Notes under the pieces: generated by a model
Database searches by the model: none
What the model was told of the DNA's origin: nothing
The model's input: the letters and a program-made list of their open reading frames with translations, nothing else
Program-made: the position numbers and the translations under genes
Shown here: one piece after another, positions 22,574 to 38,194 of the stretch
How the letters are laid out: every line of letters starts with the position of its first letter
How positions within the stretch are numbered: position 1 is the stretch's first letter
NCBI GenBank assembly: GCA_029561455.1
Contig: JAKQIY010000013.1
Span: 372,001-436,000 of the forward strand
Length of the DNA: 64,000 nucleotides
Direction of reading: 5' to 3'
Origin: a bacterium
Lineage (GTDB): Bacteria; Zhuqueibacterota; Zhuqueibacteria; Residuimicrobiales; Krinioviventaceae

Positions 22574-23461
22574 ATGCAGATTTCAATCAATAACCTGACC
22601 CAGGTTTATCGTGGGGGGCATAAAGCCCTGAATGATATCAACCTGGAAATAAGCAGCGGCATGTTCGGTTTATTGGGTCCAAACGGCGCCGGTAAAACCA
22701 CCCTGATGCGGATTCTGGTTACACTATTAAAACCTACCGGCGGAATTGTCAAGTTTAACGATTATGATCTCTTAAACGACCGTAAGAAAATTCGCAGTAT
22801 GCTGGGTTATTTGCCACAGGATTTTCAGGTCATTTCCCGTTTAAAAACCTGGGAGTTTCTGGATTATGTCGCCGGTCTGGCGGGTCTTAAAAATAAAACC
22901 GAACGCAGCAGCGCGGTTGATGAAATGCTGGAACGGGTCGGCCTGTTCAATGTTCGTGAACGCAAAGCCACCAAACTATCCGGGGGCATGAAGAGAAGAC
23001 TCGGCATTGCCCAGGCGCTCATCGGTCATCCCCAGGTTGTTATTGTGGATGAACCCACAACTGGTCTGGACCCAGAGGAACGAATTCGCTTTCGCAACCT
23101 GCTGGCCGAACTGAGTCATAAAGATATTATTATAATTCTTTCCACGCATATTGTCGGCGATATATCCAGTACCTGTACAAATATGGCTTTATTGAACAAG
23201 GGACAGTTGGTTTTTAATGATGCGCCTGAAAAGCTGGTAGAAAAATGCCGCGGTCATGTCTGGCTGATTAATGCGCTGGATAGTGAAATGGAAGCAATTA
23301 AAGAAAAATATCCGGTTATTTCTACTATTCCGGTTGATAGCGGGTGGGAAGTACAAGTGGTCGCCGATGATATGACCGGTTTCCAGGGCAAACAGATTGA
23401 TCCAAACCTGGAACACGCTTATGTTTACCACATGGAATATGGTTTAAACAATGCACAGTAA
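22574..23461 (+). CDS. ABC transporter ATP-binding protein (ABC-2 type)
   Basis: This 295-residue nucleotide-binding subunit has Walker A LGPNGAGKTT (about 35-44), the Q-loop region GYLPQDF, signature LSGGMKRR, Walker B VVIVDEPTTGLD and the H-switch STHIV. A C-terminal extension (about 215-295) is typical of ABC-2 exporter ATPases. It starts the eight-gene locus and probably energises the permease encoded 33 bases downstream. It is closely related to the ATPase domain of the RND-ABC fusion protein at 32765-37444: a 63-base stretch around Walker A differs at only five positions by my alignment. Confidence 0.95.
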   Translation: MQISINNLTQVYRGGHKALNDINLEISSGMFGLLGPNGAGKTTLMRILVTLLKPTGGIVKFNDYDLLNDRKKIRSMLGYLPQDFQVISRLKTWEFLDYVAGLAGLKNKTERSSAVDEMLERVGLFNVRERKATKLSGGMKRRLGIAQALIGHPQVVIVDEPTTGLDPEERIRFRNLLAELSHKDIIIILSTHIVGDISSTCTNMALLNKGQLVFNDAPEKLVEKCRGHVWLINALDSEMEAIKEKYPVISTIPVDSGWEVQVVADDMTGFQGKQIDPNLEHAYVYHMEYGLNNAQ

Positions 23462-23494
23462 TTGTCTTGACGATTGAAATGAAAGGTTTTGGTT

Positions 23495-26400
23495 ATGTTA
23501 TCAATATATAATATCTGGGTCATTGCTCGTTATGAGACAAAAATCCTGTTCCGCAGTTGGTTTTTCCGGGCGCTGGCGCTACTGGCAATCGGGCTTTTAA
23601 CTTTTTTTAATATTGCATTTTTTTCCAATGCCTTTAAAGAAGTGCCATGGGCTTTTCGCTGCATCCCATCATCAATTCCTTATTTTAACCTGATAATGCT
23701 CAATACCCTGCAAGCTGTTCTTACGGTTTTTTTAGCGTCCGATTTTTTAAAAAGGGATGTTAAAACCAGTTCTACCGAAGTTATTTATATGCGCTCCATG
23801 TCCAACCTTGAATATGTGCTGGGTAAAACCTGCGGTATTGTTAACATTTTTGTTATATTAAACGCCGTTATATTACTGATTGCCGCCGTTATCAACCTGG
23901 TATTCTCCGATATCGCTATACATTTGGGTAATTATTTTGTCTACTTTTTCCTTATCACTATTCCTACAATCATTTTCATAACCGGCTTGACATACCTGGT
24001 GATGATGCTGACTCGCAGCCAACCTATAACCCTGGTTTTGATGGTTGGATATATTGCCCTGTCTTTATTCTTTCTGCGACAAAAAGCCGATTACCTTTAT
24101 GATGTTATTGCTTTTTATTTACCCTTGTCCTATTCCGATTTTGTGCATTTTATCAATTTCAATAGCATTCTGAGACTGCGCGGGATGTATTTCTTGCTGG
24201 GTTTATCTTTAATCCTGATTACCGGCTTGTTATTAAAACGGTTGCCCCAGGCTAAAGGTTTGAATAAAATTGCTGCCGGGTTCTCCGCGCTGCTTTTTGT
24301 TGTGTCGCTGGTCTTTGCAGCCGTCACTGTTCTCAATTTTCAGAGCGGTATTAAATTGCGCAGTTCTATGGTGCAATTAAATGATAGATACATGCAGGAT
24401 AAATTTCCTACCGTTACCGATTATAAAATTGATTTAAATCACCTTGGTAATTATTTGAGCATCGCGAGTCATATTCAGTTTATAAATAACAGCGGAGCTC
24501 CCCTGGACAAGTATATTTTCAGTTTAAATCCAGGATTCGAAATAAGCAAAATTTCCGCTAACGGTGCCGATATACCGTTTGAGCGCAATATCCACCTGGT
24601 TATCATTAATCCGGCGCAGCCGTTGGCTCCCGGCGCCAGGGATTCGCTGACTATTGTCTGCCAGGGTGCGCCCGATGACAACGCCTGCTATCTCGATATT
24701 GATGAACTTGACCGGGCAAAAGGGAATAGTATCTTTATTTATAAATTGGGCAAAAAATTCAGTTTTGTCACACCGGATTATGTTTTACTGACCAGGGAAA
24801 GTTTATGGTATCCTGTGGCCGGTGTAACCCAGGGCAGCGCCATTTTGACCGGTCAAAAAAAGGATTTTTTCCATTTTACTTTAAAGGTGAATACCAAAGC
24901 GGGTTTGCTGCCGGTTTCACAGGGTCATGTCGAAAAAATATCCGACTCACAGTATTCATTTACTCCTGAAACCTCTTTAACTCAAATTTCCCTGGCTATT
25001 GGTAATTACAACGTGGTATCTGTAAATGTGGATAGCATTGATTATAGTTTGTTTAGTTTGAAAAACCATGATTACTATCGCCCCTATTTTACTGAAATAG
25101 GTGATACCTTAAAATCAATTATCCGTGATTCCAAACGCACTTTTGAAGATAAATTACCTGTTGATTACCCGTTCCATCGTTTTACAATTGTTGAGGTTCC
25201 GGTACAGTTTTTATCCTTTAATCGCTTACTCTCTTATCACCAGGAAAATATACAACCGGAGCAAGTGTTTCTGCCTGAAAATGGCGTCAAAGTAAATCAG
25301 GCTGATTTCCGTCAGCAAAAGCAGCGTTTCACCAATATGAGCCAGCGCCGCAACCAAACCTTTAGTGAAAAAGAATTTCAGGCGCGTTTGTTCAACATGT
25401 TTGTGAACGGTTTTCTGGGCCAGGATTTTGGCCGGGGCATGGAAAGCAGTTTTCCCGTTGATTTAAATATTTTCCCCAATTATTATACGTTCATTAATGC
25501 AGTACATTCCGATACCTGGCCGGTTGTGGATGCGGCGTTTGAGGCTTATTTCTATAATCAACTTACTGAAACGCAAAATTTCTTTGCCCGTAACTGGCTG
25601 GGTTTGTTGGATAATGAAAAAGCCAATCTGGCTTTAAAAAAATCAAGTCTTGGTGAAGTACTAAAGGACAAGGAACAAAAAGAACTTGCTAATAATGTGC
25701 TCAAGAACAAGAGCGAGGTATTGTTCCAGTTTTTAAATAACCAGGCCGGGCGTGACTATTTTGACCGATATTTAAAAGAATTCCTGCTTGCCAATCAATT
25801 TAAAACCGCTGAATTTTCCGGTTTTTGGAACGGTCTGGGCGACAAACTTATATTTTCACTAACCGATTATATGACTCCCTGGTACGATAAAATAACTATG
25901 CCGGGATATTATATTGGCAACATCCAGAATTACAAAGTAATGGATGGTAATAAAACCCGCTACCAGATAAAATTCGATGTGAATAATAATGAGCCTGTCG
26001 ATGGTTTGATTGCGGTTCGTATCCGAACCCGCGGCCAGGGTGGACCGGGAGGACGCGGATTCGGCGGTCCCGGATTTGGCGGCCCCGGCGGCCCGTTTGG
26101 TGAGAATGAGGAGGAACTGGTGTATGCGGTTGGCGCCGGTCAAACCAAACAAATCGGCATTATACTCGATACCCAACCCGGCATGATGTTTGTGAATACA
26201 CTCGTATCGCAAAACTTGCCGGCAGAATTCGATACACGTTTTGAACAGTTTGAGTTAAATGAAAAAGCAGTCCCGTTTAATGGCGAAATCCTTCTGGACA
26301 AGTCTTTGCGCCTGGATATTCCCGGAGAAATTATTGTCGATAATGAAAGTGAGGGTTTCACGATCCATGGTGTTGAACAAATCAGCCCGTTAAAAAAACT

Positions 26401-26896
26401 GTTTAAAATTGCCGATGAAGAGGAAGAGGAATATATCGGTCTGAATATGTTCCGTATGCCAGGTAATTGGCGCAAGACGATCAATGCCGCTTTCTATGGT
26501 GATTATATTCATTCTGCCGCTTATATCAAACCGGGCGACGGCAAAAAAAAGGTTACCTGGACAGCCAACCTGCCGGAAAGCGGCCAGTACGATGTTTATG
26601 GTTATTTATCCCTGTCACAGTTACGAATTGGCCGCGGTGGACCTGGCGGACCGGGAGGGCCGGGAGGGCCAGGTGGCCCCGGCGGTAATCGTGAACAAGC
26701 AGTGAACGATTTACACTTTACAATTTTCCATGATGATGGAAAGGAAGAAATAACCCTGGAAGCCGGTAGCGCCGAAGACGGCTGGAATTTCCTTGGAACT
26801 TTTTACCTATCCCAGGGCGCCGCTGTAGTTGAATTGTCCGATAAAACCGAGGGCCGTGTCGTGATTGCTGATGCCATAAAATGGATTAAACATTAA
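23495..26896 (+). CDS. ABC permease fused to pseudo-M1-peptidase and golvesin-like domains
   Basis: I place the start at the ATG 23495, behind GAAAGG with an 8-base gap, giving 1133 residues; a TTG two codons upstream is less likely. Residues about 15-270 hold six or more membrane helices of an ABC-2 permease. The rest is probably periplasmic. A beta-rich region (about 300-520) and helical region (about 520-800) resemble the M1-aminopeptidase half of known permease/M1 fusions. However, no HExxH motif exists anywhere, and the corresponding area reads NAVHSDTWPVVDAAFEAYF, so the peptidase is predicted inactive. The C-terminal about 110 residues match the golvesin-like/carbohydrate-binding-like pattern (LPESGQYDVYGYL, then VVIADAIKWI). 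Two Gly-Gly-Pro-rich tracts interrupt the exterior. It is probably the partner of the ATPase just upstream. Confidence 0.8.
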   Translation: MLSIYNIWVIARYETKILFRSWFFRALALLAIGLLTFFNIAFFSNAFKEVPWAFRCIPSSIPYFNLIMLNTLQAVLTVFLASDFLKRDVKTSSTEVIYMRSMSNLEYVLGKTCGIVNIFVILNAVILLIAAVINLVFSDIAIHLGNYFVYFFLITIPTIIFITGLTYLVMMLTRSQPITLVLMVGYIALSLFFLRQKADYLYDVIAFYLPLSYSDFVHFINFNSILRLRGMYFLLGLSLILITGLLLKRLPQAKGLNKIAAGFSALLFVVSLVFAAVTVLNFQSGIKLRSSMVQLNDRYMQDKFPTVTDYKIDLNHLGNYLSIASHIQFINNSGAPLDKYIFSLNPGFEISKISANGADIPFERNIHLVIINPAQPLAPGARDSLTIVCQGAPDDNACYLDIDELDRAKGNSIFIYKLGKKFSFVTPDYVLLTRESLWYPVAGVTQGSAILTGQKKDFFHFTLKVNTKAGLLPVSQGHVEKISDSQYSFTPETSLTQISLAIGNYNVVSVNVDSIDYSLFSLKNHDYYRPYFTEIGDTLKSIIRDSKRTFEDKLPVDYPFHRFTIVEVPVQFLSFNRLLSYHQENIQPEQVFLPENGVKVNQADFRQQKQRFTNMSQRRNQTFSEKEFQARLFNMFVNGFLGQDFGRGMESSFPVDLNIFPNYYTFINAVHSDTWPVVDAAFEAYFYNQLTETQNFFARNWLGLLDNEKANLALKKSSLGEVLKDKEQKELANNVLKNKSEVLFQFLNNQAGRDYFDRYLKEFLLANQFKTAEFSGFWNGLGDKLIFSLTDYMTPWYDKITMPGYYIGNIQNYKVMDGNKTRYQIKFDVNNNEPVDGLIAVRIRTRGQGGPGGRGFGGPGFGGPGGPFGENEEELVYAVGAGQTKQIGIILDTQPGMMFVNTLVSQNLPAEFDTRFEQFELNEKAVPFNGEILLDKSLRLDIPGEIIVDNESEGFTIHGVEQISPLKKLFKIADEEEEEYIGLNMFRMPGNWRKTINAAFYGDYIHSAAYIKPGDGKKKVTWTANLPESGQYDVYGYLSLSQLRIGRGGPGGPGGPGGPGGPGGNREQAVNDLHFTIFHDDGKEEITLEAGSAEDGWNFLGTFYLSQGAAVVELSDKTEGRVVIADAIKWIKH
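26034..26100 (+). repeat. In-frame GGP/GGPGF repeat tract 1
   Basis: This G+C-rich run encodes QGGPGGRGFGGPGFGGPGG-like sequence at about residues 849-871 of the permease fusion. It sits in an otherwise beta-rich exterior region, just before an acidic EENEEE-like stretch. It is coding and has no non-coding repeat features. Confidence 0.8.
26634..26686 (+). repeat. In-frame Gly-Gly-Pro repeat tract 2
   Basis: Five tandem GGP triplets (RGGPGGPGGPGGPGGPGG) fall inside the C-terminal golvesin-like domain, between the YLSLSQLRIG strand and the VNDLHFTIFHDDG strand. Codons vary (gga, ggc, ggg; cct, ccg, cca, ccc), so the tract is not a fresh slippage product and the protein sequence appears to be kept by selection. 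Confidence 0.85.
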
Positions 26897-26911: not shown

Positions 26912-28381
26912 ATGAGAATTGTAAAATTTGCACTGTTTAGTTTTTTATTGTTGTTTAGTATTAGCGCAACTGCGCAAATAACATCATTAACTCTTGAGGA
27001 TGCGCTGGGTATTGCCATGCAAAATAGCCCGGATATCCAGCGATCCCGCTTGAATTTGGAAAGAAGCCGGCAATCATTGCGGGCTCAACAAGCCGCATTG
27101 AAATCGCGGTTCAGCCTGTCCATAACACCTTATGATTACACCAGTGTCCGCGAGTTTAATACATTTTATAATACCTGGAATACCAATGAAATTTCCTCTT
27201 CTTTGGGTGATTTCAGTGTCCGGCAGCCGATCAAATGGACCGACGGGACGCTGATGCTGACCGACCGCCTGGAATGGCAAAATTCATTTAGTGAATTTAA
27301 AAATGAACGTTCAAAATCCTATAGTAATAATCTCTATCTCAGTTATAACCAGCCCATTTTTACTTATAATAAAACCCGTCTGGATTTGCGGGAACTGGAA
27401 CTGGATTTTGAAAATACTGCTCTGAGTTTTGCATTACAGCAATTATCGCTCGAATATCAGATAACTTTGGGATTTTATAATGTCTACAAAAATAAAATGA
27501 GCTATCAAATTTCCCAGGAAGAATATAACAACCAGGAACAAAGCTACCAGATCATCAAAAATAAAGTTGACGCCGGTCTTTCAGCCAAAGAGGAATTATA
27601 TCAGGCCGAGTTGAACCTGGCCACCAGTAAATCGACGATGCAGAATGCCCTGGTTACCCTGGAAAGCTCGATGGATGAATTTAAAAGACAGACCGGCATT
27701 GATATTATGAAAGAGATTGATGTTGTTGCCGATGTCTCTCACCAGCCTGTGCCGGTAGAAATGGAAAAAGCTCTGGCGACCGGCCAGAAGAATCGCATGG
27801 AACTCAGGCAGCGCAATATCGATATTGAAAATGCCTATGCCGACCTGACCCGCACCAAAGCTCAGAATGAATTTAAAGGCGATGTTAATCTCACTTATGG
27901 TATTATTGGCACCAATGAACGATATCAGGATATGTATGATCAATCTACCAAGAACCAGAAAGTATCGGTCTCGTTTGAAATTCCATTGTTCGACTGGGGT
28001 GAACGCAAGGCCCGCATCAAAGCCGCCGAGGCAACATTAAAGAACCAGCAGCTCTCCCAGAGCAATCAGTCCAATGATATTATTATCGGCATCCGCCAGG
28101 CTATAAGGGATTTGCAAAACCAGGAAGTGCAGATAGAAATTGAGCGGCAAAATGTGCGCAATGCCGAACTGACTTATCAGATCAACCTGGAAAAGTACAA
28201 AAACGGCGACCTGACCAGTATGGATTTGAACCTGGTGCAGACGCAATTATCGGACCGGAAGACCAGTTATATCAATTCACTCATTAGTTATAAACTGGCG
28301 CTGTTGAATTTGAAAATTGAATCCATGTGGGATTTTGTAAAAAACGAGCCGGTTGTGCCGGATTTATCTGATATTAATTGA
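26912..28381 (+). CDS. TolC-family outer membrane efflux protein
   Basis: The 489-residue protein has a signal peptide (about 1-21, ending SATAQ), then the TolC repeat pattern: LTLEDALGIAMQNSPDIQRSR, coiled-coil helices (about 200-270) and a second copy beginning near 285. The DWGERKARIKAAEA segment in the second half is typical of the family. It would form the trimeric outer-membrane channel for the adaptor and RND pumps encoded downstream. It lies 15 bases after the permease fusion gene, consistent with one operon. Confidence 0.93.
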   Translation: MRIVKFALFSFLLLFSISATAQITSLTLEDALGIAMQNSPDIQRSRLNLERSRQSLRAQQAALKSRFSLSITPYDYTSVREFNTFYNTWNTNEISSSLGDFSVRQPIKWTDGTLMLTDRLEWQNSFSEFKNERSKSYSNNLYLSYNQPIFTYNKTRLDLRELELDFENTALSFALQQLSLEYQITLGFYNVYKNKMSYQISQEEYNNQEQSYQIIKNKVDAGLSAKEELYQAELNLATSKSTMQNALVTLESSMDEFKRQTGIDIMKEIDVVADVSHQPVPVEMEKALATGQKNRMELRQRNIDIENAYADLTRTKAQNEFKGDVNLTYGIIGTNERYQDMYDQSTKNQKVSVSFEIPLFDWGERKARIKAAEATLKNQQLSQSNQSNDIIIGIRQAIRDLQNQEVQIEIERQNVRNAELTYQINLEKYKNGDLTSMDLNLVQTQLSDRKTSYINSLISYKLALLNLKIESMWDFVKNEPVVPDLSDIN

Positions 28382-28561: not shown

Positions 28562-28595
28562 GTTTAAGTATAATAAAATTTAAGAGGTGAGCAAC

Positions 28596-29645
28596 TTGAA
28601 AAGACTTGGCTTGTTATTCATTATTATTCCCTTATTTCTGGCTTGCAATCAGCAGGATCAGACTCTGGATATGCAAATTGCCGTTCCTGTCAGCGTTGAA
28701 GAAATTAAATACCGGCCTATTGAGGAATTTGTAACCGCTACTGGTACGGTGTATGCTATTCAGGAAGTAGACCTTAAATCTGAAACCAATGGTTATTACC
28801 GGGTTGCGGAGAATCCCGCTGCTAAACGACAGTTTGTGCTTGGCGATTATGTCCGCAAGGATGATGTAATCATTTACCTCGATAACCCGGAACTGGAATA
28901 TTCGACCAAAATAGAATCGCAAAAGCTAAATCTGGATATTTCCCAGCGGGAATATGAAAAACAGCAATCCCTCTACGAAAAGGGTGGGGTAACGCTGCGG
29001 GAACTCAAAAATGCGGAAATCTCTTTCAAAGACGCGCAATATAGTTATGACAATGCGCTGCTACAGCTGTCCAAAACCAAAATTTCGGCGCCTTTCGACG
29101 GCGTCATTATTGATTTGCCATACAATACTCCCGGCACCCGTGTCGAGCAGGGTGTACGCATGGTGCAGATCATGAATTATAAACAGCTATATACTGAAAT
29201 CAATCTGCCCGGCAAGGAACTGGGACAAATCAAACCAAGCCAAAAAGTCCGGGTGATGAATTATACCGTACAGAATGATACCTTATGGGGCGCAATTACC
29301 CAGGTTGCGCCGGCATTGGACCCAACAACCCGTTCCTTTAAAGCGAATATCCTTATCAACAACCCGCAAATGACTTTTCGTCCCGGTATGTTTGTAAAAT
29401 GCGAAATTGTAGTTGCTCATGTTGATAGCGCTGTGGTCGTTCCCAAAGATATTATCCTGGCCAGGGGCGAAGAAAAATGGGTATTTACTGTTGTTAAAGG
29501 CGCCGCCGAACGCCGGCGGATAACCACCGGCATCGAGAATCCCCTGGAAGTTCAGGTCGTGGAAGGATTAAAGAAAGAAGACCGGCTGGTTACAAAAGGT
29601 TTTGAAACATTACAGCATAATTCAAAAGTAAAAATTGTCCGCTAG
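28596..29645 (+). CDS. RND efflux periplasmic adaptor (lipoprotein)
   Basis: I choose the TTG at 28596 because AAGAGGTGA (28582-28590) is a good ribosome-binding site for it; the alternative GTG at 28587 lies inside that site. The resulting 349-residue protein begins MKRLGLLF and has a lipobox PLFLAC, so it is anchored by lipid. A split barrel-sandwich/lipoyl domain (about 55-90 and 155-190), an alpha hairpin (ISQREYEKQQSLYEKGGVT) and a beta-barrel domain (VAPALDPTTRSFKANI) give the standard MFP/HlyD order. It would link the RND pumps to the TolC-like channel. Confidence 0.92.
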   Translation: MKRLGLLFIIIPLFLACNQQDQTLDMQIAVPVSVEEIKYRPIEEFVTATGTVYAIQEVDLKSETNGYYRVAENPAAKRQFVLGDYVRKDDVIIYLDNPELEYSTKIESQKLNLDISQREYEKQQSLYEKGGVTLRELKNAEISFKDAQYSYDNALLQLSKTKISAPFDGVIIDLPYNTPGTRVEQGVRMVQIMNYKQLYTEINLPGKELGQIKPSQKVRVMNYTVQNDTLWGAITQVAPALDPTTRSFKANILINNPQMTFRPGMFVKCEIVVAHVDSAVVVPKDIILARGEEKWVFTVVKGAAERRRITTGIENPLEVQVVEGLKKEDRLVTKGFETLQHNSKVKIVR

Positions 29646-29666: not shown

Positions 29667-32600
29667 ATGGAAAAAATAACAAAATTTTCTGTAAATAATC
29701 CTGTAACGATCCTGATGCTGATATTAGGGATTTCCCTGCTCGGTTATATTTCTTTTGCCAAGTTGGGAATCGATTTGTTCCCGAATTTGAATAACCCACG
29801 CATATTTGTAGAGATTAAAACTGGCGAGCGACCTCCGGAAGAGATCGAGAAACAATATGTGGAAAATATTGAAGCCCTGGCTATCCGCCAGCGCGAGGCA
29901 ATGCAGGTATCTTCAGTATGTCGCGTCGGTTCTGCGCAAATCACCGTCGAGTATGGCTGGGAAACGGATATGGATGAAGCCTTTCTGGATTTGCAAAAAG
30001 CACTGACCAGTTACAGTCAAAACAGTGATCTCGATGAACTGACGATCAGCCGACACGATCCCAATTCGGCGCCGGTCATGATCGTCGGCTTTTCCAATCC
30101 GCAAATTACCGATATGGATGAACTACGCCGGGTAGCGGAAAATTATTTGCGTAACGAATTGATCAGGCTCGATGGGGTTGCTGAAGTAGAATTGCTGGGC
30201 TATGAGGAAAAAGAAGCAATCATTCACACCGATGATTATCGTTTGCAGGCTTATCAACTTACCCCAGATGATGTTGTCAACAAAGTAACCGGATACAACC
30301 GTAACATGTCCGGCGGTTCAATTGAAGAAATGGGTTATAAATACGTTATCAAGGGAGTGGGAGAGTTCACCACTCTGCAGGATATCGAAAATGTAATTGT
30401 TACCTATAAAAACCAGGAGTCTGTAACAACCGATACTGAAGTGGCCGGCCGGGTGCCGGTATTTCTGCGGGATGTCGCAAGGGTTGAACTGGTAAATAAA
30501 GATCCTGAAAATATTGTGCATATAAATGGCGAGCGCTGTATGGCGCTGGCCATTTACAAGGAAACCCGCTTTAATACGGTCAAGGCATCCAAAGCTCTTA
30601 TCGATAAACTCGATGAACTGGGCAAAGCTTTGCCGGGGTATAAACTCTTGATTATTTCCGACCAGGGTGAATTTATCACCAAAGCTATTGATGAAGTGAA
30701 ACAATCGGCCTTGATCGGTGTGCTGCTGGCGGTATTGGTATTATTCATCTTTCTGCGCCGGATAGGTATTACGTTAATTATTAGCCTGGCAATCCCCATA
30801 TCCATTATTGCAACATTTAACCTGATGTATTTTAAAGGTCTGACTCTTAATATTATGACCCTGGGCGGTCTGGCGCTCGGCGCCGGAATGTTGGTTGATA
30901 ATGCTATCATAGTTATGGAAAACATTTTTCGCCACCTGGAAGAAGGCGCGTCCCTGCGTGATGCCGCAGTTAAAGGCACAGCCGAGGTCAGCGGCGCTAT
31001 TACCGCGTCAACATTGACAACAATAGTTGTTTTTCTGCCGATTGTATTTTTACATGGCGCCGCAAGCGAGTTATTCAAAGACCAGGCATGGACGGTTGCC
31101 TTTGCTTTGTTATCTTCATTGATTGTGGCGGTGCTGGTGATCCCCATGCTAAGCGTAAAACTGTTAGGCAAGGATATTACAACCCAAAAACAGCAAACCA
31201 TAACTTTCCCGGCCTACCCGAATTTGCTGAACAAATTTTTAGATAAATCGTGGTTAGTCATTACCGGAACCCTTATTTTAATTATTGTTTCCCTGTTATT
31301 AATTCCAGTTGTGGGCAGCGAGTTCATACCCAAAACCAATTCCAATGAATATACAATCAACCTTGAACTTGTCCAGGGAACGGAATTACAACGCACTGAA
31401 AGTACCGTAAAAAATATTGAAGATATTATTAATCAGGTAGCCGGCGATGATATAATAACTATTTATAGCAAAATAGGGCCGGCGCAGAGTCTCACCGCTA
31501 TTGATCAAACTTACCAGGATGAAAACACCGCAACGATCCTGATTAAATTGCGCAAGAATCGCAAACTCGGCGGCCAGGAATTGATCAACCGCTTATCTGC
31601 CGCTATCGGCACAATACCGGATGTTAAAGCTGAAATTGTGCAAGTGCAAACGGAATTACAAACCAGCCTTGGCACCGAAACGGCCCCGATCCTTGTGGAA
31701 ATTAAAGGGGAAGACCTGGAGACCATTCAAAATTTAACCGCTCAAGCCCGCCTTAAAATGGCTGCTGTGCCGGATTTGATCAACATTACCACAAATTTTG
31801 ATGAGGGCCGACCGGAAGTCGAAGTAGTTATTGACCGGGTTCGGGCAGGTTTACTGAATATTACTATGGATAATATCAGCGCCCAGTTGCAAAACCAGCT
31901 TGTTGGTAAAGAAGCCGGGCAATGGCAAAACGAGGGCGAAACCCAGGATATTATTCTCAAGCCGCCGCAAATCGGTTTAAAGAACCTGCCCGATATTGTA
32001 TTGCAGTCGGGCACGGAAAGAATAAATCTGGATGATGTCACCGATATACGCATCAAACAATCGACTAATGAAATCTATCGCAGCAACCAAACCCGCGTCG
32101 GCAAAATTTCAGCGCATATCAATTCCGGCAAGCCGTTCGATTTGATTGTCAAGGATATTCATGCTCAATTAAAGACCATCGATTATCCAGCCGAATACAA
32201 GTATGAAATAACCGGGGAAGAACTCAAACGCAAGGAAGCTTTTGGAAATTTAAAATTTGCGCTGCTTCTGTCCATTTTACTTGTTTACATGGTTATGGCT
32301 TCGCAGTTTGAATCGCTGGTACATCCGTTTATTATTCTTTTAACTATTCCGCTGGCCGGGGCAGGTACAGTATTGCTATTCCTGGTTTCCGGCGTCAGTT
32401 TTAATGTAATGGCTTATATTGGTATTATTATGTTAGCCGGTATTGCTGTTAATGATTCGATCATCCTGGTGGACGCTATTAACCAGATCAAAAGTAGCGG
32501 GGTGGGCCGCAGAAAAGCGATTTTACAGGCCGGACAGTGGCGTATACGTCCAATCATCATGACCAGTTTAACAACGATTCTGGCATTACTGCCGTTATCG

Positions 32601-32750
32601 CTCGGTTTTGGCGAAGGCGCAGAATTGCGCGCTCCCCTGGCCCTGGCCGTTATCGGTGGTCTGATCAGTTCTACAATTTTAACCCTGATTGTCATTCCGT
32701 GCGTTTACTGGAAAGTTGACAAGTTGATAAATCCTGCACATAAAGATTAA
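29667..32750 (+). CDS. RND efflux permease (AcrB/HAE family)
   Basis: The 1027-residue protein has the regular RND layout: TM1 near residues 12-32, a large porter loop, TM2-6 around 340-500, TM7 near 530, a second porter loop, and TM8-12 to the end. TM4 reads LALGAGMLVDNAIIVMENI, which keeps the first of the two proton-relay aspartates with Asn at the second. TM10 has IAVNDSIILVD. Asp-Asn in TM4 is common in the non-AcrB branches of HAE-type pumps. It is full length with no anomaly and probably pairs with the upstream adaptor and TolC protein. Confidence 0.94.
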   Translation: MEKITKFSVNNPVTILMLILGISLLGYISFAKLGIDLFPNLNNPRIFVEIKTGERPPEEIEKQYVENIEALAIRQREAMQVSSVCRVGSAQITVEYGWETDMDEAFLDLQKALTSYSQNSDLDELTISRHDPNSAPVMIVGFSNPQITDMDELRRVAENYLRNELIRLDGVAEVELLGYEEKEAIIHTDDYRLQAYQLTPDDVVNKVTGYNRNMSGGSIEEMGYKYVIKGVGEFTTLQDIENVIVTYKNQESVTTDTEVAGRVPVFLRDVARVELVNKDPENIVHINGERCMALAIYKETRFNTVKASKALIDKLDELGKALPGYKLLIISDQGEFITKAIDEVKQSALIGVLLAVLVLFIFLRRIGITLIISLAIPISIIATFNLMYFKGLTLNIMTLGGLALGAGMLVDNAIIVMENIFRHLEEGASLRDAAVKGTAEVSGAITASTLTTIVVFLPIVFLHGAASELFKDQAWTVAFALLSSLIVAVLVIPMLSVKLLGKDITTQKQQTITFPAYPNLLNKFLDKSWLVITGTLILIIVSLLLIPVVGSEFIPKTNSNEYTINLELVQGTELQRTESTVKNIEDIINQVAGDDIITIYSKIGPAQSLTAIDQTYQDENTATILIKLRKNRKLGGQELINRLSAAIGTIPDVKAEIVQVQTELQTSLGTETAPILVEIKGEDLETIQNLTAQARLKMAAVPDLINITTNFDEGRPEVEVVIDRVRAGLLNITMDNISAQLQNQLVGKEAGQWQNEGETQDIILKPPQIGLKNLPDIVLQSGTERINLDDVTDIRIKQSTNEIYRSNQTRVGKISAHINSGKPFDLIVKDIHAQLKTIDYPAEYKYEITGEELKRKEAFGNLKFALLLSILLVYMVMASQFESLVHPFIILLTIPLAGAGTVLLFLVSGVSFNVMAYIGIIMLAGIAVNDSIILVDAINQIKSSGVGRRKAILQAGQWRIRPIIMTSLTTILALLPLSLGFGEGAELRAPLALAVIGGLISSTILTLIVIPCVYWKVDKLINPAHKD

Positions 32751-32764
32751 ATGAAAATACTGCC

Positions 32765-35700
32765 ATGAATTTTTTTGGATTTGTAATAAAACGCCGGGTT
32801 TTAATCAGCATGTTGTTTATCGGATTCAGCCTGCTGGGATTAATATCTTACAAGCTGCTGCCTGTGGAATTATATCCCAATGCCGAACTGCCGTTTTTAA
32901 TTGTCCAGGTTGGCAGTATTCAGGAGGTAAACCCGGAATACCTGGAAACCAAAGCGGTTATACCAGTTGAAGGCGCTATTACTACCCTGGAAGGGGTTGA
33001 TAAAATTGAAACATTTGTCGAAAATCGCCAGGGCGCCATTTTTGTGTATTTCAATCAAAAAACCAAAATTAAATATGCATACCTTAAACTGGAAGAAAAG
33101 ATCAATGCGGTTAAAGCTTCATTGGGAGATGAATTTAACATTCAGGTTTTAAAAGTAGATACCGACCAGGTCGCCAACCAATTTATGACATTACAGGTTC
33201 GCGGCGGTTCCGGATTGAACCGGGTACGAGAGGTGATCGACCGCAAGGTTACACCCGAACTGGAGAATATTGAAGGGATTGCCAATGTTGAAATCTATGG
33301 CGGCCAGGAGAAATCGGTTGAAATAATTTTAAACGAAGATGTCTGCCGGGCATACAATATCAGCCCGAACCGGGTACGTTCCTTGTTGATGAGTAATAAT
33401 AGTTACAAAGCATTTGTCGGTAAAGTATATGATAATGACCGGTATTTCTTCGTCAATACTGTAGCGGATTATACCAGTGTTCAGGACATTGAAAGTATCA
33501 TTGTCGATGCCGATGGGCCGCTCTATTTACGGGACATCGCCGGTATTAAATTTGGTGTTAAAGAACAAACCAATATCAGCCGGGTTAACGGCAAAGAAGC
33601 TATTACCGTACAACTGGTTCGTGATACACAAGTTAACCTGATCGACCTGTCGCATCGCACCCGCGCGGTAATCAAACAACTCAACAGCCGGTTGGCGAGC
33701 GATGATGTTGAAATTGTGATCCAGTCCGATTCTGCGGAAATCGTGGAAAAGAATATCAACCTGATTATCCAGTTAGCCCTGGTCGGCGGCTTTTTAAGCG
33801 TTCTTATTCTGTGGTTGTTTTTGCGTAATTTACAACTTGTTCTCACTATAGCGTTATCGATGCCGATTTCCATATTTACCGCTTTTAATTTTTTCTATGC
33901 CTTTGATTTATCAATCAATAGTCTTACCCTGGTAGGCATCGCCCTGGCCGTTGGTATGCTGCTGGATAACAGTGTTGTGGTGCTGGAAAACATTTACCGG
34001 ATTTTCTCGCACAATAAAGATATTGATAACGCTGTAATCCGGGGTACGACCGATGTTTGGCGCTCGATTTTAGCATCCACATTGACAACAGTAACGGTAT
34101 TTTTACCCTTTACATTTGCCGCAAATTTTATGGTTAAATTGCTGGGCAAGCATGTTGGCATCTCCATTGTTTCCACCCTGGGTGTATCATTATTGGTGGC
34201 GTTTTTACTGGTGCCAATGGCGGCGCATTTTATATTACAGCGGCTAAAGAAAAATGCGTTTGCCCGGTTTCAGTTAATTACCTATAAAAATCGCTTGTTG
34301 CAAATCTATAATGTCATTTTAAAATCATGCCTGCGCAATCCTGCCCGCACCATCATTGGCGCCATTGTATTCTTTTTTTTCAGTTTACTGGTATGCGTGG
34401 CATTGAGTTTAAATATCAGCAAGGAAACGGAATCACGGGAATTCAATTTATATTTAACAATGTCGAGTGGCGCTACACTTGAATCGACCGATGCCGCAAC
34501 CACCGAGTTGGAAGAGAAATTACAGCAAATTGAAGAAAAAGAAGAGATAATCAGTACAATAAATGAAGAAGATGCCACCGTTACCGTAAAATTAAAAGAG
34601 AATTACTACAAGATCAAGCATCGTTCCATACCCGACATAAAAAGTATGGTTGAAAAGAACATAAACGATTTCCGGGCGGCGGACGTTAGTTTCGATCAAC
34701 CACAATCGGGCAGCCGTTATCGCGGCGGTATGGGCAGAAACCCCGGCGCCAGTCTGGAACGAATGTTGGGTATTGGCAGCCAGACAGAACAAATTATCAT
34801 CAAGGGCGCCGATTTTGATATAATGAGTAATACGGCCACTGATATTCAATCTTACCTGGAACAGCTAACCAATATCAGTTCGGTGAGTTTAAATATTTCC
34901 GATAACCGGCCGGAAATACACCTGCTTTTTGATAATCACTTATTGAGCGAATATGATGTAACCCTTTCATCTATTGCCACTGAATTGTCCACTTTTCAGA
35001 ATGAATTTTCCTCCAATCTGCGTTTCAAGCAGGGCACAGAAGAATATGATATCATTATCAAAAGTGATAATGAAAAACAAAAAACTTTTGATGATTTGAA
35101 TAAAGTTCGGGTAGCATCGGCAAGCGGGGGAGAGTATGAATTGGAGACCCTCAGCCGAATTGTTTATTCACAGGGACTTGCCAGTATCAACCGCGTGAAC
35201 CAGGAAAAGCAAATTGAGATCACTTATCGTTTTAGCGATGAAGTCAACTCGTCAAAGCAGTTTTTGGTTGCCGCCCGCGCTGAAGTTGACCAGCTTATTG
35301 AGCAATTATCCCTGCCGCCTGGTATTGCTGTTGAAGTAGTTCATGAAGAAAACACCTTAAAGGATTTTTATTTTTTAATCGCCGCAACTTTTATTCTTAT
35401 CTTTATGATTCTTGCTTCGGTGTTTGAATCGCTTTCCACGCCGCTGGTGATCATGTTTACCATACCGCTGGCGGCTATCGGTTCATTGTGGGCGCTGATC
35501 CTGACCGGGAATTCCATAACCAACGTCAATTCCCTTATTGGGTTTGTTATCCTGTTGGGTGTGGTTGTCAACAACGGGATTATTTTTATAGATTACACCC
35601 GGATATTGATAAAAAGAAAATATCATAAATCGCGGGCGTTGATCATGGCGGGACAGGCGCGGGTACGCCCGATTCTGATCACCGCCATTACAACTATAAT

Positions 35701-37444
35701 TGCCATGTTGCCCCTGGCATTAGGCAAGGCGGAATATGTATCGCAAATCGGCGCCCCATTTGCGATCACCGTCATAGGCGGCCTCACCGTGAGCACGTTG
35801 TTCACGCTGATCTTTATTCCCACCTTTTTTTCCGGTTTGGATGCGTCATTGCATTGGTTGCAGCAACTCCCCTGGAAAATTGAAGTATTGCATGCCGTAT
35901 TACTGGTAAGCGGATGTTTGTTGATCTATTATCGCGTCGACAGTATCATCTGGCGGTTCATCGACTTTTTTATATTACTTTTATTGATACCGGCTATTAC
36001 CCTGTTTATAATGAAAAGTTTGCGTCGCGCCCGCACCGATTTAATTGGCGCCAATACCGAATTGAAAATAACCGTCCGGCATTTGGTCAAGATCTATGAT
36101 GACGACAGCCGTTTTGTGCGGGAATGGAAAAAAGGGAAAAAAATACGGGAACATGCCGGTATTAAAAAAGAATTCAAAACCCGCAATGATTTTGAGTCCT
36201 TGTTGTGGGAACTTCCGTTATTGGGATTTTTGATTTATTTTACTTATTTTTATCTGAAAAATTATTTTTGGATGTTTGTCTTTGCACACCCGGTTTACTT
36301 TTATACTTTATATTTGGTTACGCCTCTGCTGACCTGGTTTTATCCGGTTAAAAAAGCGGCGTTGATTCGTAAAATACTGTTTTGGGGCATTCCTCTGCTC
36401 AACCTGGTATTCTTTTACTTGCGCTGGGAAAAGCTGGTAGTGTTATTTTTTATCGCTTTAATCTGGTATCTTGCCCTGGCTATCTATACAACCTCAAACC
36501 GGTTGCTGAGAGATAAAGTGGATATTGTTAGGCTGCAGGGTAAATTCAAAACTATCCGGCAAAATTTCTATCGCCTGGTACAGATCATTCCGGTCATTGG
36601 CAAGAAAAAGAATCCCTTCAGGGCGTTGAACGGCGTTTCTCTCGAGATCGGCAGCGGTATGTTCGGTTTACTGGGGCCAAACGGCGCCGGTAAAACCACC
36701 CTGATGCGGATCATTTGTGGAATTTTACAGCAAAGCCGCGGCAAGATTTGGGTCAATGAATTTGAAATTAATGAAAAGCGCGAGGAGTTACAGGGACTGA
36801 TCGGCTATCTGCCCCAGGAATTTGGCATGTATGAAAACATGACGGCATGGGAATACCTCGATTATCAGGCTTTACTTAAAGGCATTTATAATACTCAGGC
36901 GCGTGAAGAAAGGATCAATTATGTTTTGTCCGCTGTACACATGCAGGAAAGCCGTGATGTGAAAATTGAATCTTATTCCGGTGGCATGAAACAGCGTATC
37001 GGCATCGCCCAAACCTTGCTGCACCTGCCGCGCATCCTGGTGGTAGATGAACCAACCGCCGGGCTTGACCCGCGTGAGCGCATCCGTTTCCGTAATTTAC
37101 TGGTAGAACTGGGCCGGGAACGAATTGTGATCTTTTCCACCCATATTATTGAAGATATTGCCAGTTCCTGTAATAAAGTAGCGGTGTTAAACCAGGGCGC
37201 ATTATGTTACCTGGGCACGCCTGCCGATATGGTGAACGTGGCGCAAAATAATGTTTGGCAATTTTTTCTGGAACCGGCAATTTTTGAAGATTATACCCGC
37301 GATATGCTGGTTTTGCACCACATGCGGGTTGATGATAAAATCAGAGTGCGTTGCCTGGCAAACGCCAAACCACACGAGGACGCAATTCAGGTCAAGCCAA
37401 CCCTTGAAGATGCTTACCTGATGCTTTTGCGTAACAAACACTAA
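32765..37444 (+). CDS. RND permease - ABC ATPase fusion protein
   Basis: This single 1559-codon frame has no internal stop. Residues 1 to about 1020 are a complete RND permease: TM1 at the N-terminus, TM4 with LAVGMLLDNSVVVLENI, TM10 with GVVVNNGIIFID, and the GQARVRPILITAITTI loop. Two further helices follow (about 1038-1086). Then comes KITVRHLVKIY (about 1101-1111), which looks like the first strand and A-loop tyrosine of an ABC ATPase. A soluble link and about four helices (about 1146-1248) interrupt it before RALNGVSLEI (1286 on). The ATPase then continues with Walker A GPNGAGKT (1304-1311), signature SGGMKQR (1405-1411), Walker B ILVVDEPT (about 1424-1431) and H-switch His1460. All catalytic motifs are intact. 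The next gene encodes an ABC-2 permease that could be its partner. Confidence 0.93.
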   Translation: MNFFGFVIKRRVLISMLFIGFSLLGLISYKLLPVELYPNAELPFLIVQVGSIQEVNPEYLETKAVIPVEGAITTLEGVDKIETFVENRQGAIFVYFNQKTKIKYAYLKLEEKINAVKASLGDEFNIQVLKVDTDQVANQFMTLQVRGGSGLNRVREVIDRKVTPELENIEGIANVEIYGGQEKSVEIILNEDVCRAYNISPNRVRSLLMSNNSYKAFVGKVYDNDRYFFVNTVADYTSVQDIESIIVDADGPLYLRDIAGIKFGVKEQTNISRVNGKEAITVQLVRDTQVNLIDLSHRTRAVIKQLNSRLASDDVEIVIQSDSAEIVEKNINLIIQLALVGGFLSVLILWLFLRNLQLVLTIALSMPISIFTAFNFFYAFDLSINSLTLVGIALAVGMLLDNSVVVLENIYRIFSHNKDIDNAVIRGTTDVWRSILASTLTTVTVFLPFTFAANFMVKLLGKHVGISIVSTLGVSLLVAFLLVPMAAHFILQRLKKNAFARFQLITYKNRLLQIYNVILKSCLRNPARTIIGAIVFFFFSLLVCVALSLNISKETESREFNLYLTMSSGATLESTDAATTELEEKLQQIEEKEEIISTINEEDATVTVKLKENYYKIKHRSIPDIKSMVEKNINDFRAADVSFDQPQSGSRYRGGMGRNPGASLERMLGIGSQTEQIIIKGADFDIMSNTATDIQSYLEQLTNISSVSLNISDNRPEIHLLFDNHLLSEYDVTLSSIATELSTFQNEFSSNLRFKQGTEEYDIIIKSDNEKQKTFDDLNKVRVASASGGEYELETLSRIVYSQGLASINRVNQEKQIEITYRFSDEVNSSKQFLVAARAEVDQLIEQLSLPPGIAVEVVHEENTLKDFYFLIAATFILIFMILASVFESLSTPLVIMFTIPLAAIGSLWALILTGNSITNVNSLIGFVILLGVVVNNGIIFIDYTRILIKRKYHKSRALIMAGQARVRPILITAITTIIAMLPLALGKAEYVSQIGAPFAITVIGGLTVSTLFTLIFIPTFFSGLDASLHWLQQLPWKIEVLHAVLLVSGCLLIYYRVDSIIWRFIDFFILLLLIPAITLFIMKSLRRARTDLIGANTELKITVRHLVKIYDDDSRFVREWKKGKKIREHAGIKKEFKTRNDFESLLWELPLLGFLIYFTYFYLKNYFWMFVFAHPVYFYTLYLVTPLLTWFYPVKKAALIRKILFWGIPLLNLVFFYLRWEKLVVLFFIALIWYLALAIYTTSNRLLRDKVDIVRLQGKFKTIRQNFYRLVQIIPVIGKKKNPFRALNGVSLEIGSGMFGLLGPNGAGKTTLMRIICGILQQSRGKIWVNEFEINEKREELQGLIGYLPQEFGMYENMTAWEYLDYQALLKGIYNTQAREERINYVLSAVHMQESRDVKIESYSGGMKQRIGIAQTLLHLPRILVVDEPTAGLDPRERIRFRNLLVELGRERIVIFSTHIIEDIASSCNKVAVLNQGALCYLGTPADMVNVAQNNVWQFFLEPAIFEDYTRDMLVLHHMRVDDKIRVRCLANAKPHEDAIQVKPTLEDAYLMLLRNKH

Positions 37445-37459
37445 ACTGTAACGATATGG

Positions 37460-38194
37460 ATGTATTACATGAGAGTGGATAAAACAATAATTCGGAATTT
37501 TCTGTTAGTTATTTATAAAATGGTACATTATAATTTAAAAGTAATTTTTGGAAATATTTTTATTTATTTTTTATTGGGAGCGGTTGGATTTTTCCTGTTC
37601 ACGGCTGCGCTTACTTTTTTTGATGCCAACGCCAATCCAACCCCGGCTACGGTTTTTTATTTACTGCTTTTTCCGGGAATATTGATTATTTTTTATCCTG
37701 CAACATTCGGTATCCAAAATGACAGCGACAGCCGGACTCTGGAAATATTATTCGGTATACCGGACTATCGTTATAAAATCTGGTTGGTGCGGTTGGGGAT
37801 TATTTATGTTCTGGTATTTTGTATTTTGCTGGTTCTGGCGTTGCTTGCTATGGCAGCGTTTACCCGGTTTTCACTGCTGGCAATGGTTTTTCACCTTATG
37901 TTTCCCATTTTTTTTATTGGCAGTCTGGCTTTTATGTTCTCAACAGTGGTCCGGAACGGATATGCAGCTATGGTTTTTCTGATCATTTTGGGAATGGTTT
38001 TTTGGATTCTGAGCGGCGTTCTCTCCGAAAGCCAATGGAATTTATTTCTGAATCCCTTTCACGTTCCTGAAAAAATCAGTGAGTTAATATGGGCCAGCAT
38101 CAAAGTAAAAAACCGGCTGTATATCCTGTCCGCGACCATTTTGATGATTTTGTATGGGTTACTGAATATGCAAAAACGGGAAAAATTTGTCTGA
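37460..38194 (+). CDS. ABC-2 type permease
   Basis: The 244-residue hydrophobic protein has about six membrane helices. Its central cytoplasmic loop, NDSDSRTLEILFGIPDYRYKIWLVR, resembles the coupling loop of ABC-2 exporters (compare E-x-G-T-x-E-x-L in the family). It has no ATPase of its own nearby other than the one fused to the RND pump, which ends 15 bases upstream, so pairing with that domain is the simplest reading. An internal ATG at 37469 is an alternative start. It is the last gene of the transport locus and nearly touches the convergent small gene at 38196. Confidence 0.85.
   Translation: MYYMRVDKTIIRNFLLVIYKMVHYNLKVIFGNIFIYFLLGAVGFFLFTAALTFFDANANPTPATVFYLLLFPGILIIFYPATFGIQNDSDSRTLEILFGIPDYRYKIWLVRLGIIYVLVFCILLVLALLAMAAFTRFSLLAMVFHLMFPIFFIGSLAFMFSTVVRNGYAAMVFLIILGMVFWILSGVLSESQWNLFLNPFHVPEKISELIWASIKVKNRLYILSATILMILYGLLNMQKREKFV

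Follow-up and report, generated by a model that had tools for sequence, protein, structure and literature searches.

An RND permease and an interrupted ABC ATPase in one open frame of a recurrent seven-gene cassette

According to a 2021 review, all RND efflux pumps that have been characterised run on ion gradients (PMC8277102). The open frame at positions 32765-37444 of the stretch of bacterial DNA analysed here (64,000 nucleotides; hereafter the window) raises the question of what a complete RND permease does on one chain with an ABC ATPase, and whether this union is a property of the organism or of its assembly. An earlier reading made from the letters alone (the sequence-only reading) had described the two as joined in frame in a single 1559-residue protein, and both Pfam domains indeed score far above their cut-offs on that chain.

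One open frame and an interrupted ATPase

The frame divides into the following parts.

32765..37444, + strand: RND2::ABC fusion, 1559 aa, single open frame
32774..35833, + strand: RND domain of the fusion, aa 4-1023 (Pfam ACR_tran, 562 bits, E 2.4e-168)
35873..36034, + strand: two extra predicted membrane helices past the RND domain, aa 1037-1057 and 1061-1090 (AlphaFold)
36065..36100, + strand: first strand and A-loop of the fused ATPase, aa 1101-1112, with Y1111 (AlphaFold strand, PSSM, invariant residues)
36101..36610, + strand: inserted domain within the fused ATPase, aa 1113-1282 (AlphaFold; without a Pfam family)
36611..37441, + strand: remainder of the fused ATPase, aa 1283-1559 (Pfam ABC_tran at aa 1288-1432, 100 bits, E 2.1e-28; motif alignment)

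The RND part covers positions 2-1018 of the 1021 in the ACR_tran model and is therefore a complete permease with both membrane halves. In the ATPase part, Walker A (position 1304), the Q-loop (1351), the signature (1405), Walker B (1428) and the H-loop (1460) are invariant or nearly so across 94 aligned fusions, which upholds the earlier statement that Walker A, signature, Walker B and H-loop are intact; judged by this motif conservation, the fused ATPase is catalytically intact. As for the RND part, the TM4 aspartate D401, the acidic residue for proton binding, is present in 94/94 fusions, its neighbour is mostly Asn (N402), the TM10 position is Asn (N936) rather than Lys, and the TM11 Arg is kept (R968). 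We considered whether the fused RND had lost its proton relay and rejected this because most other, ABC-less RND pumps of the same genome carry the same set of residues. Thus, at the level of residues, nothing suggests a dead engine in either half.

Ordinary ABC ATPases have the A-loop aromatic on the first strand and Walker A ~20-30 residues later. The contiguous nucleotide-binding domain (NBD) expected of an ABC transporter was, however, not what we found in the fusion, where four predicted membrane helices intervene and Walker A follows the A-loop Tyr at a distance of 185-211 aa (94/94 fusions). The displaced start was located by comparison with NBD1, a stand-alone ATPase encoded in the same gene cluster (see below), which begins with its first strand and A-loop, MQISINNLTQVY. 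A PSSM built from residues 2-13 of 29 NBD1 proteins was slid along the ~250-residue linker of the fusions; it peaked at aa 1101 of the window fusion, KITVRHLVKIYD, and at that place in 94/94 fusions, and I1102, K1109 and Y1111 are invariant in all of them. Chance likeness was rejected, given the identical position and a mean best score of 15.3 as opposed to -3.2 (sd 3.5) in shuffled linkers. In the AlphaFold model (pLDDT 87), aa 1102-1111 form a strand and the next one comes only at 1285, so that there the first strand could pair only with the ATPase body; between them lie helices at 1116-1130, 1140-1163, 1167-1192, 1195-1221, 1224-1250 and 1262-1274, that is, an inserted domain of an amphipathic helix and four predicted membrane helices (aa 1140-1250), for which Pfam holds no family. 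Moreover, genome G056 has a natural two-gene form (L180:2097-7174), in which a 1136-aa RND with two membrane helices is followed by a 483-aa ATPase gene that starts just ahead of the first ATPase strand. Because the PSSM, the AlphaFold model and this natural split agree, we place the start of the ATPase domain at about aa 1100 and conclude that a four-helix domain is inserted in it, the two further helices (aa 1037-1090) bridging the RND part and the ATPase start. The cassette described below thereby contains an ABC ATPase into which a membrane domain intrudes, and to our knowledge no such case has been described.

As a separate observation, a divergent fusion on the minus strand of genome G057 (L181:5931-10831) is broken within the inserted membrane domain into chains of 1206 aa and 372 aa, so that the RND chain carries the A-loop and the other chain Walker A; this is either a genuine split or a sequencing error.

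Recurrence and origin of the fusion

The 94 aligned one-frame fusions comprise 89 distinct sequences and 83 at <95% identity, with pairwise identities down to 44% (median 53%). In the window's own phylum, the fusion was present in 41/82 genomes and 30/59 genera (E <= 1e-150), and it was also found in records labelled Calditrichaeota, Melioribacteraceae, Latescibacterota and Krumholzibacteriia. At least 6/395 sampled Bacteroidota genomes carry it, a lower bound because few candidates per genome were scored in this draw, which spanned the phylum and was centred on a Marinifilum genome. Isolates with the fusion include Marinifilum, Labilibaculum, Sunxiuqinia and Mangrovibacterium marinum DSM 28823, and no plasmid copies were found at E 1e-100. 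Related fusions with an adjoining ABC-2 permease, which the sequence-only reading had proposed to look for in independent genomes, thus exist in many lineages from several groups, so that the refuting condition set there, absence of any related fusion elsewhere, does not hold. The occurrence of the one-frame form in many independent assemblies and in isolates rules out a frameshift or chimera at this locus.

The ATPase tree also took in a divergent set of fusions, whose RND part is only ~33% identical to that of the window fusion. In this tree the fused domains formed one clade (96/87) and NBD1 another (96/77), and these two together with ATPases linked to ABC-2/M1 proteins stood apart from the genome's other sampled ATPases (99/97). 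In the RND tree, the fused RND parts formed one clade (99/99), beside which the unfused second member of a tandem RND pair, L007, was placed (91/98, on a long branch). A single old fusion event, followed by inheritance and spread, is the history that would fit best.

The seven-gene cassette and its nearest relatives

The fusion is the sixth gene of a cassette in the order NBD1 - BIG - OEP - MFP - RND1 - RND2::ABC - PERM, with all genes on the + strand and gaps of 14-205 nt. The other six genes are as follows.

22574..23461, + strand: NBD1, stand-alone ABC ATPase, 295 aa (ABC_tran, 110 bits)
23489..26896, + strand: BIG, 1135 aa, ABC-2 domain, pseudo-M1 aminopeptidase fold and golvesin (Pfam, AlphaFold, Foldseek)
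26912..28381, + strand: OEP, TolC-like outer membrane channel (Pfam OEP, E 4.7e-43)
28587..29645, + strand: MFP, RND-type periplasmic adaptor (NCBIfam TIGR01730, 194.6 bits, cut-off 94.9)
29667..32750, + strand: RND1, unfused RND permease, 1027 aa (ACR_tran, 727 bits)
37460..38194, + strand: PERM, ABC-2 type permease, 244 aa, six predicted membrane helices (conserved family)

PERM, 15 nt beyond the fusion stop, is the ABC-2 permease gene noted earlier; its Pfam match to ABC2_membrane_3 is weak and below cut-off, and it has a colinear weak match to the membrane domain (TMD) of BIG (E 0.004). The accompanying statement that no other unpaired ATPase lies nearby was wrong, since NBD1 sits 9.3 kb upstream in the same cluster. 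NBD1 is the closest paralogue of the fused ATPase within the window genome (40% identity over 280 columns, hhalign E 1.6e-97) and, like it, has kept all catalytic motifs. RND1 and the RND part of the fusion are 30% identical.

The seven-gene order is kept in nearly every locus long enough to display all genes, and the stand-alone ATPase lies ~14 kb from the fused one in 19/19 further genomes searched. MFP and OEP were found in the loci long enough to show them, and the RND part therefore retains its tripartite partners. Across the 82 genomes of the phylum, the fusion and BIG were both present in 39, both absent in 37 and discordant in 6 (Fisher p 4e-16), and the fusion and PERM were both present in 39, both absent in 38 and discordant in 5 (p 4e-17). 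The discordant genomes are mostly incomplete or fragmented drafts; one of them, G037, has a fusion fragment just above the cut-off.

BIG resembles ABC-2 proteins over aa ~1-300, and some homologues have a Pfam ABC-2 match there. In its AlphaFold model (pLDDT 82), the part after residue ~300 has its best Foldseek matches in IRAP, ERAP1 and PepN, that is, the M1 aminopeptidase fold; Peptidase_M1 is matched in 18/29 homologues and a C-terminal Golvesin_C in 29/29. The zinc motif HEXXH is absent from the window BIG and from all 30 homologues, and because of this absence the pseudo-M1 domain probably serves for binding rather than cutting.

Among known systems, MdtABC/MuxABC (HAE-1) resemble the cassette in that two distinct RND permeases are combined with an MFP and an outer membrane channel, and among solved structures MdtB comes closest in sequence to RND1 as well as RND2 (9lyq for the fused RND). 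Surveyed heterotrimer tandems are, however, ~50% identical pairs from one HAE-1 clade of proteobacterial origin (PMC10872679), whereas the tandem pair of the cassette, at 30% identity, occurs in other phyla, has one member that bears an ABC ATPase, and scores far below cut-off with the NCBIfam MdtB and MdtC models. The same genome also has an unfused tandem RND pair (L004 and L007, G000:C68:36566-42612), likewise two RND genes in a row but with no ABC part (1017-aa frames); its L007 is the neighbour of the fused clade in the RND tree. As in MacAB-TolC, an ABC transporter is associated with an MFP and a TolC-type channel, but in MacB the NBD shares a chain with its own permease (PMC8277102), whereas the NBD here is joined to an RND permease, with ABC-2-like TMDs (PERM and BIG) and no MacB/FtsX fusion. 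Bacteroidota ABC-2/M1-aminopeptidase transporters (e.g. L175:4888-9417) have an ATPase sister to NBD1 (94/88) beside a large ABC-2 and M1 protein; that protein, in contrast to BIG, keeps its zinc motif (HEMAHQWW in L175), and the stretch read has no RND neighbours. ArsAB, finally, also combines a carrier with an ATPase, but the families are unrelated and the chains are separate. The parts belong to known families, and each named system that was compared has a defining feature that the combination lacks.

The earlier remark that no described transporter is known to have this architecture agrees with our search of the open-access literature, outside the scope of which most subscription journals fall, where no RND-ABC fusion was found in print; the words 'ABC' and 'fused' are also absent from the main text of a recent RND phylogeny (PMC10872679). 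We file the cassette as a variant of tripartite efflux pumps; it would become a new category if dual energy coupling holds.

Possible workings of the cassette

Our working hypothesis, to which we give an even chance, is that the seven genes encode one trans-envelope exporter, in which a single heteromeric ABC-2 transporter is tethered to a tandem-RND tripartite pump. This arrangement is favoured by the conserved gene order and co-occurrence, by the near kinship of two ATPases that have both kept their motifs, by the retained tripartite partners, and by RND charge residues like those of the genome's other RND pumps. We infer subunit pairing, stoichiometry, direction, hand-off, energy coupling and cargo class as follows. 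NBD1 and the RND2-fused ATPase would be the two ATPases of the transporter, the N-terminal ABC-2 domain of BIG and PERM would be its two membrane subunits, and the fused chain would tie it to the tripartite RND pump (RND1/RND2, MFP and OEP). The ABC half probably lifts amphiphilic or peptide-like cargo from the cytoplasm or the inner leaflet, the periplasmic pseudo-peptidase/golvesin part of BIG would receive and hold it, and the proton-driven RND trimer would send it through MFP and OEP to the exterior. In a single-chain read-through AlphaFold model the individual domains are good but their relative placement is not (pTM 0.68), and docking of PERM on the NBD is not visible; the likely coupling-helix stretch has a pLDDT of ~55-60, and Foldseek matches spanning NBD and TMD of ABCG proteins have an rmsd of 18-20 A.

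Tentatively, and as less likely than not, we also consider a doubly energised transporter, in which the membrane-threaded ATPase would be mechanically coupled to the RND cycle, and ATP and the proton gradient would together carry a single cargo out of the cytoplasm and through both membranes. RND pumps normally take their cargo from the periplasm or the membrane; the cassette offers a possible route from the cytoplasm to the outside through an RND pump. As a widespread set of genes with an intact ABC ATPase on an RND chain, it also allows a direct test for coupling between primary and secondary transport within one machine.

Clearly less probable than our working hypothesis is that the cassette holds two ABC transporters, an NBD1 homodimer working with BIG and a homodimer of the fused NBD working with PERM, the second dimer arising if each RND trimer held one RND1 and two RND2::ABC chains. 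This reading accords with the loci, where NBD1 adjoins BIG and the fused NBD adjoins PERM, and with two variant arrangements: in the rearranged cassette L144 (genome G044), the fusion and PERM lie on the opposite strand, adjoining the other five genes, so that they can be a unit of their own, and in the L175 stretch, where no RND genes occur, a BIG-like ABC-2/M1 protein has a relative of NBD1 next to it. Against it, all parts strictly co-occur, and the trimer would need two identical fused chains with one RND1.

An ATP-powered or ATP-gated RND pump, in which the ATPase would act directly on the RND cycle through the two extra and four inserted helices, much as ArsA acts on ArsB, and not by way of a separate ABC translocation path, appears unlikely. 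These six membrane helices do physically connect the ATPase to the RND core, and the inserted stretch stays in place in 94/94 fusions; yet PERM and BIG supply ordinary ABC-2 membrane partners, the charged residues of the RND part are unchanged relative to unfused pumps, and the L180 gene pair puts RND and ATPase on two chains, which indicates that covalent coupling is not obligatory. Between the two options of the sequence-only reading, then, the composite pump is still the best account, while ATP gating found no direct support; that reading had overlooked the split ATPase, the second, paralogous ATPase with its large ABC-2 protein, and the tandem nature of the RND pair.

That the fused ATPase is a regulatory or scaffolding module for assembly, with no transport stroke, is a low-cost explanation that accounts for the tethering of parts, but we regard it as very improbable because all catalytic motifs are invariant over the 83 lineages, as expected if hydrolysis is under selection. 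An assembly or annotation artefact (missed stop, frameshift or chimera), which might be suspected from a draft genome in 85 contigs, is already refuted by the recurrence of the one-frame fusion and is practically out of the question.

Outside the seven genes, no conserved neighbours are shared among the loci. In Marinifilaceae, a BlaI-type repressor (Penicillinase_R) and an M56/BlaR1-type gene follow the cassette (L033:14344-16421; also L034, L036, L078 and L086), and in three other loci (L222, L215 and L224) NBD1 is preceded by a gene for a small GntR regulator and by additional ABC ATPase genes. The BlaI/BlaR1-like pair and the GntR regulator are thin hints of a possible envelope-stress role or control.
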